Assembly (NCBI RefSeq): GCF_010537335.1
Contig: NZ_AP019711.1
Location: 1,364,001-1,428,000 of the forward strand
DNA: 64,000 bases
Source of the DNA: Amedibacterium intestinale
GTDB taxonomy: Bacteria > Bacillota_I > Bacilli_A > Erysipelotrichales > Erysipelotrichaceae
Reading direction: 5' to 3'
Under the pieces are notes generated by a model, which was given only the letters and a program-made list of their open reading frames with translations, was not told where the DNA came from and did not search any database. Position 1 is the stretch's first letter. Each line of letters opens with the position of its first letter. Positions 53,796 through 61,576 of the stretch are shown one piece after another. Made by a program: the position numbers and the translations under genes.

Positions 53796-56258
53796 TCATT
53801 TCAGATGTGCTTTCATTACTTCCTGCAATACATTAAAATCAATTGGTTTTGCGATATGTGCATTCATACCAGAACGTAAAACTCTTGCGACATCTTCACT
53901 AAAAGCATTTGCGGTAACTGCAATGATCGGAATACTTCTAGCATCATCACGATCTAGACTACGTATCTTTTCACTTGCTTCGCATCCATCCATGATTGGC
54001 ATCTGCATATCCATCAATATCAAATCAAAGCTGTATGGAGAAGATGACTGAAAGATATCCAGCGCTTCTTTCCCATTTTCTGCACAAATAACTTCCAAAT
54101 CATGCATTTGTAAAATTTCCGTTGCAATCTCTCTATTTAATTCATTATCTTCCGCAAGAAGTACTTTTTTCCCTTGTAAAACATTTTCTGTTTGCTTCTC
54201 ATCTTTCTTTTCTTCACTGACCTGGGTATTTGCGACTTCAAAAGGAAGTGTAACAACAAAAGTCGTTCCTTCTTTCAATTTGCTTTCTACATCAATTTCC
54301 CCACTCATCTGTTCTACCAAACTTTTTACAATCGGCATTCCTAGTCCAGTTCCAATCGTAGATTTTGTGGAAAAGTGTGTTTCTCTTGCGTAAGGTTCAA
54401 ATAAATGATTTAAGAAAGATGCAGACATGCCAATACCGCTGTCTTTGATCGTAAAGCGAATTTTATGATACTGGCGATATTCCAGTTCCTTTACCTCTAA
54501 TAAGACTTTATCCCCTGCATCACTGTATTTAAAGGCATTCGATAATAAATTATTTAAAATTTGAACGACCTTTAGTTCATCTCCTTTTATATATTTATTC
54601 TTAATATCAATGTTTACTTTAAAATCTTTTTTATCTTCCATTGCTTTTGCTTCAAAACTGCCGCTAATATTATGAATACATTCCTCAAGATTAAAGTCTC
54701 TATAATCTAAATGGGAATGTCCTGACTCTAATCTTGACAGTTCCAATATATCATTGATCAAAGACAGCATATTTTGTCCAGAAAAAGAAATTTTCTTCAT
54801 ATAGTCTTTGTTCTTATCTGACATATCTCCGCTTTCAAGTGCCAGTTTAGAAAATCCAATAATTGCATTTAAAGGAGTTCTCATTTCATGTGACATATTG
54901 CTGAAGAAGGTTTCTTTAGCTTCTGCTGACTTTTTATTTGTTTCTAAGGTTTCCTGCAGCAGCAAAGTATATTGCAGCTCTTGCCGCTTTTCTACATCCA
55001 CATCACGGAAACATAGAATAACTTCTTCACTGGATATTTTTTCGTTATATAAAGTTCGTATATTTACCCATTTATAACGATCATTAAATCTTCGCTTATA
55101 ATCTCCCCCATAATCCGCAATATGTTCCTTCACTCGCTGTTTTATGCTGTCTAAAGAAAAACAAAATGCAAATTCCTGATACGTTCCTTTTTCTACGACT
55201 GTCTCAATCATTTGCAGTAAATGATCATACGTCCCATTCATTCCAACTTTTTCATTCATATCTGCAGCATTTTTTAATGTTGTATACATTCCTGTTTTCA
55301 AATTTACTCGATAAATCGCATAAAAAGAATCAGAAAGTATAGAAACTGTTCTATCTGCTTCTTTTATTTTTCTGCTATGCAAGATATCTCGTACAAACAT
55401 AAACAAAAGAATCAGTATTAAAATGCCTCCAACAGCAAGAAGTCCATACATTAATACATTGCTTTCCCCCAGCAGCAACGTATCAAAAGGAATCGTCATA
55501 ATGATCATCCAGCCATTTTCCATCTGTGAATAATAGACTCCTCTTCTTTCATTATTAAAATCTTTAAAACTGTCATCATAAGAGGAGAAATACCCCTTCT
55601 GCACATTAGCAAATAAGGTATGTGCATATTCATCAAGTTTTTCTGATGGTTTATTCCAAGGCGTTTTGGCATAAATCAAATGTCCTTTTGAATCACACAA
55701 ATATAAAGCATTCCCTTCAATCTCTTCTGTAAGAGCATTTCTTAACCCCTGTAACTTTGAAGGATAAATATCCATCGCAAGAACAGCTCCCTCATCTTCC
55801 AATGCTATACTGGAAGTGATGATAGATTCCTTTGTTATCGCATCTTCATAAGTATCTGTAAAAACAACCTTTCCTTTATCAGTCATAGCCATCTGATACC
55901 ACTCTGTATCTTCATACTCATAAGAATTATCCCCTTCCCAAGGGGTAACAGCGATAATTTTTCCACCAATAACAGCATAAGGATCAATAACTTTATCCCC
56001 ATATAGTTTCGTTATCTTTTTAAAATAATCAACCATCCAGTTTTGAATTTCCTTATCATCTGCACCTGATCGTATCAGTTCATTTACATATTGAGAACCA
56101 ATATCAAGATAATCTTCAAACATCCTCATTTGTGCCTGCTGCTCTGTCGCATAGCTTTGTGTCAAAGCAGTTCCAAGACTTTGTGCATTTTTCAACATCT
56201 TATCCCGCACAAAATAAAGACTGCTTATAATGATCAATAAGGTAATAACGATTGTCAT
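53796..56258 (-). CDS. Hybrid sensor histidine kinase, separated from its 5' end by an ISL3-like element
   Basis: The 820 codons encode a membrane helix at the very start (VITLLIIISSLYFV), an extracytoplasmic dCache-like sensor (about 20-265, with YAVIGGKIIAVTPW), a second helix (about 270-292), a PAS-like linker, HisKA with the phospho-His in FFSNMSHEMRTPLNAI (about 470), HATPase motifs (NLLSNAFKYSD, DSGIGM, GTGLGMPI) and a receiver with Asp in LILMDMQMPIMDG (about 745). The frame stays open upstream (SWSTVLNA) into the IS end. No good ribosome binding site precedes ATG 56258. The likely true start lies beyond the IS at 58619. Confidence 0.85.
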   Translation of the reverse strand: MTIVITLLIIISSLYFVRDKMLKNAQSLGTALTQSYATEQQAQMRMFEDYLDIGSQYVNELIRSGADDKEIQNWMVDYFKKITKLYGDKVIDPYAVIGGKIIAVTPWEGDNSYEYEDTEWYQMAMTDKGKVVFTDTYEDAITKESIITSSIALEDEGAVLAMDIYPSKLQGLRNALTEEIEGNALYLCDSKGHLIYAKTPWNKPSEKLDEYAHTLFANVQKGYFSSYDDSFKDFNNERRGVYYSQMENGWMIIMTIPFDTLLLGESNVLMYGLLAVGGILILILLFMFVRDILHSRKIKEADRTVSILSDSFYAIYRVNLKTGMYTTLKNAADMNEKVGMNGTYDHLLQMIETVVEKGTYQEFAFCFSLDSIKQRVKEHIADYGGDYKRRFNDRYKWVNIRTLYNEKISSEEVILCFRDVDVEKRQELQYTLLLQETLETNKKSAEAKETFFSNMSHEMRTPLNAIIGFSKLALESGDMSDKNKDYMKKISFSGQNMLSLINDILELSRLESGHSHLDYRDFNLEECIHNISGSFEAKAMEDKKDFKVNIDIKNKYIKGDELKVVQILNNLLSNAFKYSDAGDKVLLEVKELEYRQYHKIRFTIKDSGIGMSASFLNHLFEPYARETHFSTKSTIGTGLGMPIVKSLVEQMSGEIDVESKLKEGTTFVVTLPFEVANTQVSEEKKDEKQTENVLQGKKVLLAEDNELNREIATEILQMHDLEVICAENGKEALDIFQSSSPYSFDLILMDMQMPIMDGCEASEKIRSLDRDDARSIPIIAVTANAFSEDVARVLRSGMNAHIAKPIDFNVLQEVMKAHLK

Positions 56259-56376
56259 CGCATTTAAAACGGTGCTCCAAGAATAGTTGGGGTAAGCTGA
56301 AATGAAACTTTAAGAATTCAAGTGGCGGCATATACCCCAAAACGGTTTGAAGCCCACTTGGGAGCTGGTAGCTTGT

Positions 56377-57822
56377 TTAGCTGCCTGGCTCCTTTTTTGC
56401 TGTCATGTGAACACTTCCGTCATCCTTATTGATTTCAAATGTAATGCCTTTTTCTAAGACCAGCATACATCGGTTTCTAAACCTTTCCCAATTTGTATAC
56501 CCATTTGCTGCTTTGGTTATCAGCTTGATTACTCCATTGCGGTTTTCCATCAATGCATTATTGATCCTTTTCTTCTCTACAGTGATTTCTCCTGTTTCTT
56601 TCGATATTCTGTATACAGCTTTTGATACAGTGAAAGAATTGATGATCTCTTTCTTCCAGTTAAACATCGTATAGCTGAATTTGACCATTTCGTCAATTCC
56701 ACTTTCCCGTAGTTTTTTAATCAATGCATTTAGAGCTTCAGGTGCTGTATCCAGTGTATTCGTAATATAAAAATCCGTAACTTCATCCTTTAATTCCCAT
56801 GCCTTGCTGATATCCGGATGAATAGATGTCAGTTTTATGGCTATGTCATATGGATTCATGTACTTTTTGAAGTGCTGATTGTAAGTTTTCTTTCTATTGA
56901 TGTCAAAAAGCCTTTTCTTGTCCGGTCCTTTTGAACGTATATAGTGCTTGAATAAAAGGTTGTTATGGTGCTTCAGTAAATAATACGCATCCTGCTGTTC
57001 CTGTGTCCTGTGCTTTGTGTTTATGCATCTGTATTGATTCATGATCCTTAAGCGAACGGAATCCATACGTCGATGCAGTTCCTGTGCGATATGATAATGG
57101 TCTACCACATGGATCGCATGAGGGAAATGCTTCTTAAATATCCTTCGATATGGCTCATACATATCCGTAACTACATAATGGACACCTTTCTTTTCGTATT
57201 CAGGAATCTTTGAATAATATTTGTCCAGATATTCATATCTTCTGCTTGGGAGGATATCGACAGGCTGACCATTTTGCTGGTTGATGATGACACAGACATA
57301 TTTGCTTTCCTCTGTTTTGGAATGAAAAGCATAATTTTCATCAGTGGAGAGGACGGCAGGAAGCTTAGCCCTGGGTATATTTACCGTTTTATCGAATATC
57401 GAAGCTACAGTAGTAGGAGATACTTTATACCTTACACCTACAGAAGTGAATGTCTGAGATGGATTTTGAAGTTCCTTAAGTATGGCAAGTACTACATTGG
57501 AGGATATCTTCATTCGATGGAACACGAATGGATTGGTTTCATAGTATGTTTTACCACATACAGGACAGATGTATCTTCTCGCATGATAGTTCAATATGCA
57601 GGACTGTTCTGTCAAAATAGAGTGATTGATCTTTTTTCTTACATATCCTTTGATTTTGACGATCTCATTCCCACAAAAAGGGCAGGAAGACCTGATGTCT
57701 TTGAGTTTTACGTCGATCAGCGTTTCTTTTTCTCTTCTGAAACAGTCACAGGATTCGATTTGGTCCGGATCAAGACTGAATATAGTACTGATCAAGGCAA
57801 TATTGTGATTAGGATTATTCAT
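56377..57822 (-). CDS. ISL3-family transposase
   Basis: This 481-aa transposase has an N-terminal zinc-binding region (SCPFCGNEI and YICPVCGKTYYE), an HTH (VGVRYKVSPTTVASIFD), and the DDE core with the first Asp in AVLSTDENYAF (about 165), the second in HYVVTDMYEPYRR (about 220) and a Glu near NALMENRNGVIKLI. The frame is intact. GAGGTGTAATTT precedes the ATG. Confidence 0.9.
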   Translation of the reverse strand: MNNPNHNIALISTIFSLDPDQIESCDCFRREKETLIDVKLKDIRSSCPFCGNEIVKIKGYVRKKINHSILTEQSCILNYHARRYICPVCGKTYYETNPFVFHRMKISSNVVLAILKELQNPSQTFTSVGVRYKVSPTTVASIFDKTVNIPRAKLPAVLSTDENYAFHSKTEESKYVCVIINQQNGQPVDILPSRRYEYLDKYYSKIPEYEKKGVHYVVTDMYEPYRRIFKKHFPHAIHVVDHYHIAQELHRRMDSVRLRIMNQYRCINTKHRTQEQQDAYYLLKHHNNLLFKHYIRSKGPDKKRLFDINRKKTYNQHFKKYMNPYDIAIKLTSIHPDISKAWELKDEVTDFYITNTLDTAPEALNALIKKLRESGIDEMVKFSYTMFNWKKEIINSFTVSKAVYRISKETGEITVEKKRINNALMENRNGVIKLITKAANGYTNWERFRNRCMLVLEKGITFEINKDDGSVHMTAKKEPGS

Positions 57823-57894
57823 AAATTACACCTCACGATCTGTTTATTGATTCAAGAATATTGTAAATGAATAAAAAACAGAAGGTTAGGAAAG

Positions 57895-58356
57895 CTATGT
57901 TGGTAATGCCAATAAATTGTAAAATATATTTCTGTTATTTAATGCAGAATGAATAACCTCTAAAAAAGAACTATAAGAAAGCTGCTGCTTCAGTAAACGT
58001 AGAGGCAGTCTTTTGGTAAGCTTAAGCCGATAAGAATCATCAATGATAGAATCGGTGTTTTTGTTCATCATTTTTATGAGAGTAATGAATGTATAAAGGA
58101 AATAAGGGATAATGGAGCTGGTCAAAATAGAATGAACAGAATGACAATGATTACATCTACATCTCTGAATCCTAATGGTTTCTTTTCTGCCATCAGGAAG
58201 GATGACAGTACGGTTATAGTGACCATAAAAGACCAATTCACAATTGCCACAGTGAGGGCATTGAGAATGGATGATAAAATCTTTGTTGGAATAAATAATA
58301 TTTTCATAAAGTTCTTGATTCAAGACAAGATAATCATTAGAATAAAGATGTATCAT
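57895..58356 (-). CDS. DUF6431-like accessory protein of the ISL3-like element
   Basis: This 153-aa protein has a zinc-finger set (CPHCGNCELVFYGHYNRTV, then CRCNHCHSVHSILTSSIIPY) followed by helices. Proteins of this DUF6431 pattern are encoded next to ISL3-like transposases and resemble a detached N-terminal half of such an enzyme. It lies on the same strand 72 bases before the transposase gene. A role in end recognition is an inference. Confidence 0.65.
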   Translation of the reverse strand: MIHLYSNDYLVLNQELYENIIYSNKDFIIHSQCPHCGNCELVFYGHYNRTVILPDGRKETIRIQRCRCNHCHSVHSILTSSIIPYFLYTFITLIKMMNKNTDSIIDDSYRLKLTKRLPLRLLKQQLSYSSFLEVIHSALNNRNIFYNLLALPT

Positions 58357-58561
58357 AAATAGTCCTGTCAGGGACGGAAGAAGCAGAGATGGTTACATTT
58401 GGAGAGATGTCAGAGCATCCTGCTTTTTTTATGTCTGTCTGATTTTTCCTTTCATAGTAAGTATAACAAAAAAAGCCCCAAAATGTTTGGGAGCTAAAAA
58501 CAGGCAGGCTAGCTCATTACCCCATATAAAATTAAAGAATGGGCTAACCCTAACTATTCTT

Positions 58562-58619
58562 ATATAATCTTTAAAACAATCGAACCGGCTGCTTTTCTTT
58601 TTCCCAATTTAAATCCCAT
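58562..58619 (-). pseudogene. Detached 5' end of the hybrid kinase gene
   Basis: After the HPt gene, ATG 58619 opens MGFKLGKRKAAGSIVLKII and meets a stop where the ISL3-like repeat begins. The frame resembles the start of a membrane kinase, and the C-terminal side resumes as SWSTVLNAMTIV beyond the element. Position in the operon supports its being the kinase start. The lack of a target duplication means some codons may be lost. Confidence 0.6.
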
Positions 58620-58625
58620 CTTTCT

Positions 58626-58982
58626 TTATAAAGTCTTTTGAAATTCCGTTAAAACAGAAATCATGTTGCTGTAGATTCCTTCTATTTCTGGAAATATAGC
58701 TTCTGCCTGTTCTATCTTATTTTCTTTTAAAGCATCTGCTAAATTTGCACTCATGCTTCCAAGTTTTGAAAATCCAAGATTAGAACAGATTCCTTTCAAT
58801 GTATGACTTGCTCTATAAGCAGCTTCATAATCTTTTTCTTTCCATGCTTCCACAAGCATTCCATAATTTGGATCATCTAAAAATTTCAAAGCATATTTTA
58901 CAATCAGTTTTTCCAGCTGCAAACGTGCCAATACTTCATTATAATTCTCTCCCATAGCTTCATAGCACTCTTTTATTATCAT
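58626..58982 (-). CDS. HPt phosphotransfer protein
   Basis: This 118-aa helical protein has the phospho-His motif ASHTLKGICSNLGFSKLGSMS (His about residue 58). It would shuttle phosphoryl groups between the hybrid kinase receiver and the REC-HD-GYP-GGDEF protein. I prefer ATG 58982, 9 bases after AAGGAG; in-frame ATGs at 58991 and 59009 lie upstream. It overlaps the upstream gene end by 23 bases. Confidence 0.85.
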   Translation of the reverse strand: MIIKECYEAMGENYNEVLARLQLEKLIVKYALKFLDDPNYGMLVEAWKEKDYEAAYRASHTLKGICSNLGFSKLGSMSANLADALKENKIEQAEAIFPEIEGIYSNMISVLTEFQKTL

Positions 58983-61398
58983 CTTCTTCATCTCCTTCAA
59001 ACCAGACACTTACACGATTTCTTGTTTTTTTAGCCTCATACAGCATCTTATCCGCTTCCTGCAGCAAATATTCTACTGAACAAGATCCAAAAGCACACCC
59101 AATACTGCAAGTCCGTTCTATGCCAGTATTTTTAAGCAACGTATTTTGTATGTTCAAGCGAATCTGATTTAAACGCATTTCTACGATGCTTCTTGAAATC
59201 TCGCTAAACATAATAATAAATTCGTCTCCGCCATAGCGAATAACCATATCTTTACTACGTACACTTTCTAACATTACTTTAGAAGTCTCACTTAATATAA
59301 CATCTCCTACAAAATGTCCATATTTATCATTTACATTTTTAAAATAATCTAAATCGACCATCGCAACAGCACAAATATTTTTATCTCTATACATTCGATC
59401 TTCTAAATATCGGCGATTGTATACACCGGTTAACTCATCTGTATATAATTTTTTCTGCAGATCTTCAATAGACTGCGACATATTGGTTTTTCCATACAAG
59501 GCTACTTCAAAATTTTCTTTGATTTTAGATACCAGCTCCAATACATACGGATTTCCATCCACTTCCATATATTCTGATATCACATAATAAAATTCATTGT
59601 TAACATACTCAAATTTTGTTGTACTGGATTTTGATGCCTTTGCTTTATGGGAAGTACAGTTTTGACATTTTCCCGTTCGTTCCCAAAGGGAATAACAAGA
59701 ATAAGGGGAAGTATGAATATTATTTTTTTCATCAATACTAATAATTTTATTTGTTTCTACATCTACAAAACGAACTACATCAAAAACTTTTTTTAGTTCC
59801 TCCACCATTGTTCTTGCCTGTGCAAAGCTCATTTTATAATACTCTTCTTTCGTATTTACACCATTAATAGAAAATACCTGCTGCTTATCTTCTACGTTTC
59901 TTTCCTGATTAATGATTCCTACAACTCCTGCAAATTCTGCTTTTGTTTTCATCAACCACATCGTTCGGCAGATACAATGACAGATTTTTTCTTCTCCATC
60001 AATTGTTAAATTGCATTCAAATTCAAAGTCTGGCTTTTCACATGTTGTGTTTTTCGCAAGTTCAATAAACTCTTCCAAGGCTTTCTTATGTTCCTCTGAT
60101 ATAATTCCTTTATTAGATAATGGATTCAATACTACTTCAGGTGCATTTAGGCGTAAGGCATCTTTTTTAGAAAAGAAAATCATATCCAGATTTGCATTAT
60201 AAACAAAGGTAATGTTTGATAATTTATCCGTAAAGAAACTGATTTTCTTTTGTTCTATCTCCAGCTGTTCCATCATTTGATTCGTTACAGATAACTCATC
60301 ATAATTTTGTAATACCTTAACAGCATCATCAACTTCACTTGCTGCATCTGAAGGTACATACTTATACGTTTCTTCTTTCAAATCATCTTCAATATCAATA
60401 AGGGCAGCCAGCAGTTTCGGATTAAATGCTCCACATTTTCCATCTAAAATCATCTGCATTGCCTCTTCATGTGGAATCGCCTTTTTATAACATCTTTCAC
60501 TTGTCAAGGCATCATATACATCCGCAAGAGAAACAACTTGTGCTGATAAAGGAATTTCATCTCCCTTTAATCCATCCGGATAACCTCTTCCATCCCATCG
60601 TTCATGATGCCAGCGACAAATTTCATAAGACACTTGAATCAGTGGATCCTTTTTTCCCAGCTTTAAGCTTGAAAGCATATCAGAACCAATTTGAGAATGT
60701 GTTTTCATAATCTCAAATTCTTCCTGTGTTAATCGTCCCGGTTTATTTAATATTTCGGTAGGTATCGAAATTTTACCAATATCATGCAAGGAAGAAGCCG
60801 TTCGAATCAAAGCAATTTCAGAAGAGGAAAGACGAATATCTTCATGGTTTCTTACTAAGCTATGCAGAAGTTTTTCTGTAATATTATTAATATGAAGAAC
60901 ATGCAATCCACTTTCTCCATTACGAAATTCTACAATATGACTTAAGATAGAAATCATTAAATTGCTGCGCTTTTCTTTTTCATAAATCTGCTGCGTAACG
61001 ATATTTTTTAATTTTTTCTGTTTTGCATATAAAGTTATTAAATTGGATACACGTCGTTTTACAATACTAACGTTAAATGGACGGTTAATAAAATCTTCTG
61101 CCCCTAATTCATAAGCTTTTTCAATATTCTCTGCGGAAAAATCAGATGAAATAATAACAACAGGAATGTCCTGAATCCAATTGTATTTTTTCATATAAGA
61201 TAATACTTTAAAACCATCCATTTCCGGCATTACCAAATCCAGCAAAACAAGCGCTATATCATTTAAATTGTTTTTCATTTGTATTAACGCATCAAACCCA
61301 TTTTCAGAAAGCAGAAGCTCATAATCATCCTCTAAAATATCACTTAAAAACTCACGATTCAATTCTGAGTCATCTACTATTAGAACTTTATCTTTCAT
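58960..61398 (-). CDS. Response regulator with HD-GYP and GGDEF domains
   Basis: The 812-aa protein combines domains for breaking and making cyclic di-GMP. A receiver comes first with Asp in LVLLDLVMPEMDG (about 53). An HD-GYP phosphodiesterase domain follows (about 145-330: LHDIGKISIP, HHERWDGRGYPDG, SLADVYDAL), then a long middle region with a PAS-like part and a Cys-rich segment (CQNCTSHKAK, about 590), and a GGDEF cyclase at the end (RYGGDEFIIMF, about 745). GGGAAAGGAAAGAG precedes ATG 61398. It heads the phosphorelay operon with the HPt protein and hybrid kinase. Confidence 0.9.
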   Translation of the reverse strand: MKDKVLIVDDSELNREFLSDILEDDYELLLSENGFDALIQMKNNLNDIALVLLDLVMPEMDGFKVLSYMKKYNWIQDIPVVIISSDFSAENIEKAYELGAEDFINRPFNVSIVKRRVSNLITLYAKQKKLKNIVTQQIYEKEKRSNLMISILSHIVEFRNGESGLHVLHINNITEKLLHSLVRNHEDIRLSSSEIALIRTASSLHDIGKISIPTEILNKPGRLTQEEFEIMKTHSQIGSDMLSSLKLGKKDPLIQVSYEICRWHHERWDGRGYPDGLKGDEIPLSAQVVSLADVYDALTSERCYKKAIPHEEAMQMILDGKCGAFNPKLLAALIDIEDDLKEETYKYVPSDAASEVDDAVKVLQNYDELSVTNQMMEQLEIEQKKISFFTDKLSNITFVYNANLDMIFFSKKDALRLNAPEVVLNPLSNKGIISEEHKKALEEFIELAKNTTCEKPDFEFECNLTIDGEEKICHCICRTMWLMKTKAEFAGVVGIINQERNVEDKQQVFSINGVNTKEEYYKMSFAQARTMVEELKKVFDVVRFVDVETNKIISIDEKNNIHTSPYSCYSLWERTGKCQNCTSHKAKASKSSTTKFEYVNNEFYYVISEYMEVDGNPYVLELVSKIKENFEVALYGKTNMSQSIEDLQKKLYTDELTGVYNRRYLEDRMYRDKNICAVAMVDLDYFKNVNDKYGHFVGDVILSETSKVMLESVRSKDMVIRYGGDEFIIMFSEISRSIVEMRLNQIRLNIQNTLLKNTGIERTCSIGCAFGSCSVEYLLQEADKMLYEAKKTRNRVSVWFEGDEEDDNKRVL

Positions 61399-61576
61399 AA
61401 TTCTCTTTCCTTTCCCCACATCTACGTTTATCTAGCTGCACTTTATACAATTTACGCATTGTTCTTTCTCTACACACTTTTATTAAATGAATTTTATTTT
61501 ATGCTTTCCATCTTTATACGTCATATAAATTATAGCACAAATAGTAAGATTGCTATGGTTTTCTAAAATTCTCTTT

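Follow-up and report, generated by a model that had tools for sequence, protein, structure and literature searches.

An ISL3-family insertion sequence interrupts the hybrid kinase gene of a phosphorelay operon with cyclic di-GMP domains in Amedibacterium intestinale

The operon and the insertion sequence within it

The window is the whole stretch of DNA that was analysed, 64,000 nucleotides of Amedibacterium intestinale. On its minus strand, read leftwards, lies an operon coding for a regulator with REC, HD-GYP and GGDEF domains, an HPt protein and a hybrid kinase (Table 1). This gene order had been proposed from the letters of the DNA, and Pfam domains bore it out. The start ATG of the regulator was chosen by homology, its mechanical ORF beginning at 61419; the start of the HPt protein is uncertain, with a mechanical ORF from 59009. 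The HDIGK, HHE..DG.GYP and GGDEF signatures and the phospho-acceptor Asp motif were found in the regulator, which thus keeps both cyclic di-GMP domains, as had been claimed. A motif check found both the His box and the receiver Asp in the hybrid kinase. One protein unites HisKA, HATPase and REC; with an HPt protein and a REC-bearing output regulator, the His-Asp-His-Asp phosphorelay gene set is complete, and its kinase gene is interrupted. Six bases separate the HPt stop codon from the kinase start codon. The domains and motifs support the sequence-only reading of a phosphorelay-to-cyclic di-GMP operon whose kinase gene was broken near its 5' end by an ISL3-type insertion sequence (IS).

Table 1. 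Features of the operon and of the inserted element (positions in the window)
Feature	Positions	Strand	Basis
Response regulator, REC + HD-GYP + GGDEF	58960..61398	-	Pfam Response_reg, HD_5/HD, GGDEF
HPt phosphotransfer protein	58626..58991	-	Pfam Hpt; HTLKG motif
Hybrid kinase 5' fragment, 50 bp with one duplication copy	58570..58619	-	In frame with 3' fragment; aligns with intact orthologs
Hybrid kinase 3' fragment: PDC sensor, HisKA, HATPase, REC	53796..56270	-	Pfam
ISL3-type IS, 2299 bp	56271..58569	- (genes run the operon's way)	Ends set from five related copies found elsewhere in the genome
Target-site duplication TTTAAAAC, left copy	56263..56270	.	
Target-site duplication TTTAAAAC, right copy	58570..58577	.	
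ISL3-family transposase, 481 aa, frame intact	56377..57822	-	DDE_Tnp_ISL3, Zn_ribbon_ISL3
IS ORF1, DUF6431, 153 aa, with cysteines as in a zinc ribbon	57895..58356	-	Pfam
Terminator-like hairpin + T-run inside right IS end	58476..58492	-	Pattern scan
Strong hairpin, then six T, inside left IS end	56360..56398	+	Fold of 61 bases, -26.1 kcal/mol

The ISL3-like identity of the element was confirmed by the transposase inside it, which scored above the Pfam cut-off for both PF01610 (131.9 bits) and PF14690 (29.5 bits). Ten sequences were compared, the window IS and nine others (L130-L138). Five of the nine (L130-L133 and L135) allowed both ends to be located and were about 68% identical to the window IS over the matched part; L134, L136, L137 and L138, with partial or end-only matches, were not counted. 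The element had been described as 2.28 kb long with 19-bp inverted ends. The 19-bp inverted repeat is real (56279-56297 and 58543-58561, 89%) and of the ISL3 kind, in which terminal inverted repeats are about 20-25 bp, but the related copies showed that each end had been placed 8 bp inside the true one. By eye, the outermost 8 bases pair poorly in the window IS and better in the other copies. The right-terminal eight bases have diverged from both the inverted repeat and the other copies, which is probably why no target duplication had been seen. A perfect 8-bp duplication, TTTAAAAC, does flank the element. Directly outside the same outer ends, a perfect 8-bp duplication was also found in all five placeable other copies (6/6 counting the window). 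By arithmetic with equal base frequencies and with the ends fixed by the other copies, a match of eight out of eight has a chance of about 1 in 65,000. Where a target duplication seems absent, other copies of the element should be compared before a deletion is proposed.

Searching the strain's own genome (one contig of 2,488,096 bases) gave the window itself as the only identical place, the other matches being weaker and in related elements. One related copy, L135 (G000:C1:20106-24309), has in turn been broken up by another insertion, about 1.3 kb long, and a short piece at G000:C1:1831773-1831945 matches the left IS end only (82% identity, query bases 1-176) and is apparently a relic. No copy of the window IS was matched in plasmid and phage records, and no relative of the transposase was confirmed in viral contigs. 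A homologue of ORF1 was present in all five other copies; in two of them, L132 and L133, the N-terminal portion is changed. Among 30 loci examined (L164-L193), a DUF6431 ORF had an ISL3-type transposase match close by in 11, the window's own counted, and several other DUF6431 loci had a different, longer ORF next on the same strand. The DUF6431 protein may be an accessory protein common to several transposon types.

Some cells of the population or culture might lack the IS, making the pathway phase-variable through IS movement; the intact transposase and ORF1 frames and the perfect duplication are what a recent event predicts. We consider this very improbable, as divergence from the other copies is seen in the right-terminal eight bases, the genome has no identical second copy, and ISL3-type insertions seldom leave precisely.

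Both ends of the IS carry terminator-like hairpins. The one inside the right end, read from 58492 to 58476, would stop operon transcripts entering the IS. The one inside the left end is predicted by folding to stop transcription coming in from the kinase side; it was absent from the output of the terminator pattern scan, and hairpins occur at the same place in the five other copies too. In shuffled sequence 1.5 sites are expected and the scan gave 2, which makes any single terminator-like site weak evidence.

The split kinase gene and its relatives

The kinase fragment upstream of the IS consists of 50 bases, that is, 16 codons and two bases, with the duplication included. When the two flanks were joined with one copy of the duplication removed, a single open frame of 838 residues was obtained. 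No codon was therefore lost, and the deletion of codons that had been raised as a possibility at the insertion point is ruled out. From the original kinase start, translation meets a stop after 19 residues, the last of which are encoded by the IS. The split near the 5' end had been read correctly, but not its extent: of the 19 codons said to be cut off (58562-58619), only 50 bases belong to the kinase, and the end of that 19-residue frame is IS.

We searched 315 genomes of the order for kinase orthologs at E values up to 1e-100. The kinase was matched in 11 genomes, its own included, so that 10 others carry it. The best matches, G043 (57%) and G067 and G059 (54%), all belong to another family, and matches of 40-43% came from five genomes within the window's own family, all of a single genus. 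These results indicate that the operon's kinase is patchy in the order, by transfer or loss. The sole other genome of the genus examined had no kinase ortholog at this limit, and no match to the IS at the limit used. Twelve relatives were aligned, nine taken from genomes and three from named records; L159 and L160, cut by contig ends, and L028, which matches in the second half only, were kept out of the alignment. Intact orthologs with the same N-terminal region were found among the relatives, all 12 aligned sequences ran uninterrupted across the insertion region, and close relatives matched the junction region. The two fragments could in principle be parts of different genes, with the split kinase a coincidence. 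The in-frame flanks and the 12 uninterrupted relatives rule this out, and we give it practically no credence; a comparison proposed as able to overturn the sequence-only reading thus came out in its favour.

All three proteins of the operon occurred together in 6 of 15 loci searched with tblastn. The full REC-HD-GYP-GGDEF length was found in L128, L129 and L155, and a shorter REC-HD-GYP match in L156, L018 and L019 (Fibrobacter). The order in L018 differs, running kinase, HPt, regulator, and L129 has one extra GGDEF protein between HPt and kinase. The kinases of L129 and L155 are 98% alike and do not count as independent. An HPt match was missing in 9 of the 15 loci, several of which are short contig ends. 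In G043 (L128:9867-15760), genes for a set of small, apparently exported proteins, one MucBP protein and one VWA protein come after the uninterrupted operon. This set is possibly a surface-structure output. No cyclic di-GMP riboswitch was found in the loci surrounding the kinase in 10 relatives.

The 3' remainder of the kinase gene is open for 820 residues from an ATG at 56258, the codon for residue 19 when the frame is uninterrupted. No visible decay was detected when it was compared at the invariant columns of the 12 aligned relatives: it deviates at 1 of 120, and relatives left out one at a time deviated at 0 of 119 to 23 of 142. None of the 17 open codons upstream of this ATG, which reach into the IS, is ATG, GTG or TTG, and a restart would therefore likely use the internal ATG itself. 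The nearest GGAG is 16 bases ahead of it, and there is no well-spaced Shine-Dalgarno. Inside the transposase, a promoter-like match in the kinase's direction (56906-56878) agrees with the consensus at 11 of 12 bases; the scan gave 8 promoter-like sites where chance predicts 9.4, and a search of the five related copies with a loose pattern did not find this one.

These features bear on the alternative that a shortened kinase is made from ATG 56258, through read-through of the transposase gene or from the internal promoter-like site, and still feeds HPt. It might do so constitutively because its cytoplasmic tail is gone. The fully open frame with conserved motifs, the shared direction of transposase and kinase and the promoter-like match would fit such a product, and ISL3 elements can reportedly switch genes on as well as off, as far as the available part of that source goes (PMC5559704). 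We nevertheless hold this alternative to be unlikely. The 17 codons without a common start and the distant GGAG argue against it, and a truncated kinase would be poorly equipped. The first membrane helix would also lack the four positively charged residues of the N-tail, from which its orientation should suffer. The promoter-like site, not found in the related copies, may merely reflect coding sequence.

The interrupted relay and cyclic di-GMP in the genome

The insertion, the duplication, the joined frame and the conserved operon were observed directly. In the explanation we prefer, a normal ISL3 transposition struck the hybrid kinase gene, third in the operon, and full-length kinase is no longer made; we put its probability at about 75%. 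The IS would have entered near the 50th base of the gene, making the 8-bp duplication. Before this event, as the domains and the conserved gene order suggest, the PDC domain of the membrane kinase would have sensed a ligand and the kinase would then have autophosphorylated. The phosphate would have passed from the kinase receiver to HPt and on to the REC domain of the regulator, and the phosphorylated regulator would have set the degradation or synthesis of cyclic di-GMP. Now kinase translation would stop after 19 residues within the IS and the terminator-like hairpin would face the operon transcript, so that full-length kinase would not be made. The regulator and HPt genes lie upstream of the IS and are untouched; their products would still be made, unphosphorylated unless there is another donor. 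We infer that kinase function is lost, with an effect on cyclic di-GMP, and that the pathway is probably left without its input. IS knock-outs of kinases are common, and the event is an ordinary IS knock-out in a conserved pathway of known kind. Some points speak against the null reading. The 820-residue remainder appears undamaged, and a recent insertion and a kept truncated kinase would look alike; the transposase also reads the kinase's way, with what looks like a strong promoter match inside.

We then considered the genome as a whole. One Hpt match and one HD_5 match were found, both in the operon of the window, and the kinase search returned the window kinase as the only frame matching both a kinase core and a receiver. 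The apparent absence of a second relay or HPt adds some interest to the insertion. There are four GGDEF domains in three frames, two EAL domains, and no PilZ match. By eye, the second GGDEF frame combines an intact EAL with a GGDEF motif that is degenerate, and the third has one intact and one degenerate GGDEF, with E-T-L where E-A-L is expected. A single c-di-GMP-I riboswitch was found (L222:3785-3874; G000:C1:97784-97873), upstream of a protein of 1703 residues with Peptidase_M60, fn3 and F5/8 type C domains (L222:3953-9064). In the unbound leader, part of the aptamer is predicted to pair with the 5' arm of the terminator, and the riboswitch is therefore predicted to be an OFF switch. In the literature library searched, no publication joined M60, mucin and metalloprotease with a cyclic di-GMP riboswitch.

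The riboswitch may answer to the interrupted relay. The insertion may then have silenced the sole His-Asp-His-Asp input of a very small network, with three GGDEF/HD-GYP/EAL proteins, no PilZ and one c-di-GMP-I riboswitch, and have fixed the surface-protease output. This extension is tentative, and we think it rather doubtful. If it is true, the strain is a naturally occurring mutant in which the surface protease, as the output, is fixed and not under signal control. Since the genome appears to have a single phosphorelay of this kind and a single c-di-GMP-I riboswitch, both the input and the candidate output of a small circuit can be named.

Comparison with known systems

In systems of the RpfC/RpfG type, a hybrid kinase signals to a REC-HD-GYP regulator. 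The operon of the window resembles them in pairing a hybrid kinase with an HD-GYP regulator. It differs in that its HPt is a separate protein and its regulator adds a GGDEF domain.

In Clostridioides difficile, PPEP-1 (Zmp1) is under a type I cyclic di-GMP riboswitch, reported as an OFF switch in the available part of the source (PMC5270738). Away from the operon, the genome of the window likewise has a c-di-GMP-I riboswitch ahead of a gene for a secreted metallopeptidase. Unlike PPEP-1, this peptidase belongs to the M60 family, and its tie to the interrupted operon is a presumed one.

The closest counterpart of the IS in this comparison is the enterococcal fosB ISL3-like transposon, as described in the accessible portion of its report (PMC5559704). 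The window IS differs from it in having a DUF6431 ORF upstream of the transposase and no passenger resistance gene, and in its diverged right terminal bases. Both have an ISL3 transposase, AT-rich 8-bp target duplications and a length of about 2.3-2.5 kb, and the same source describes ISL3 elements as known to inactivate or activate genes.
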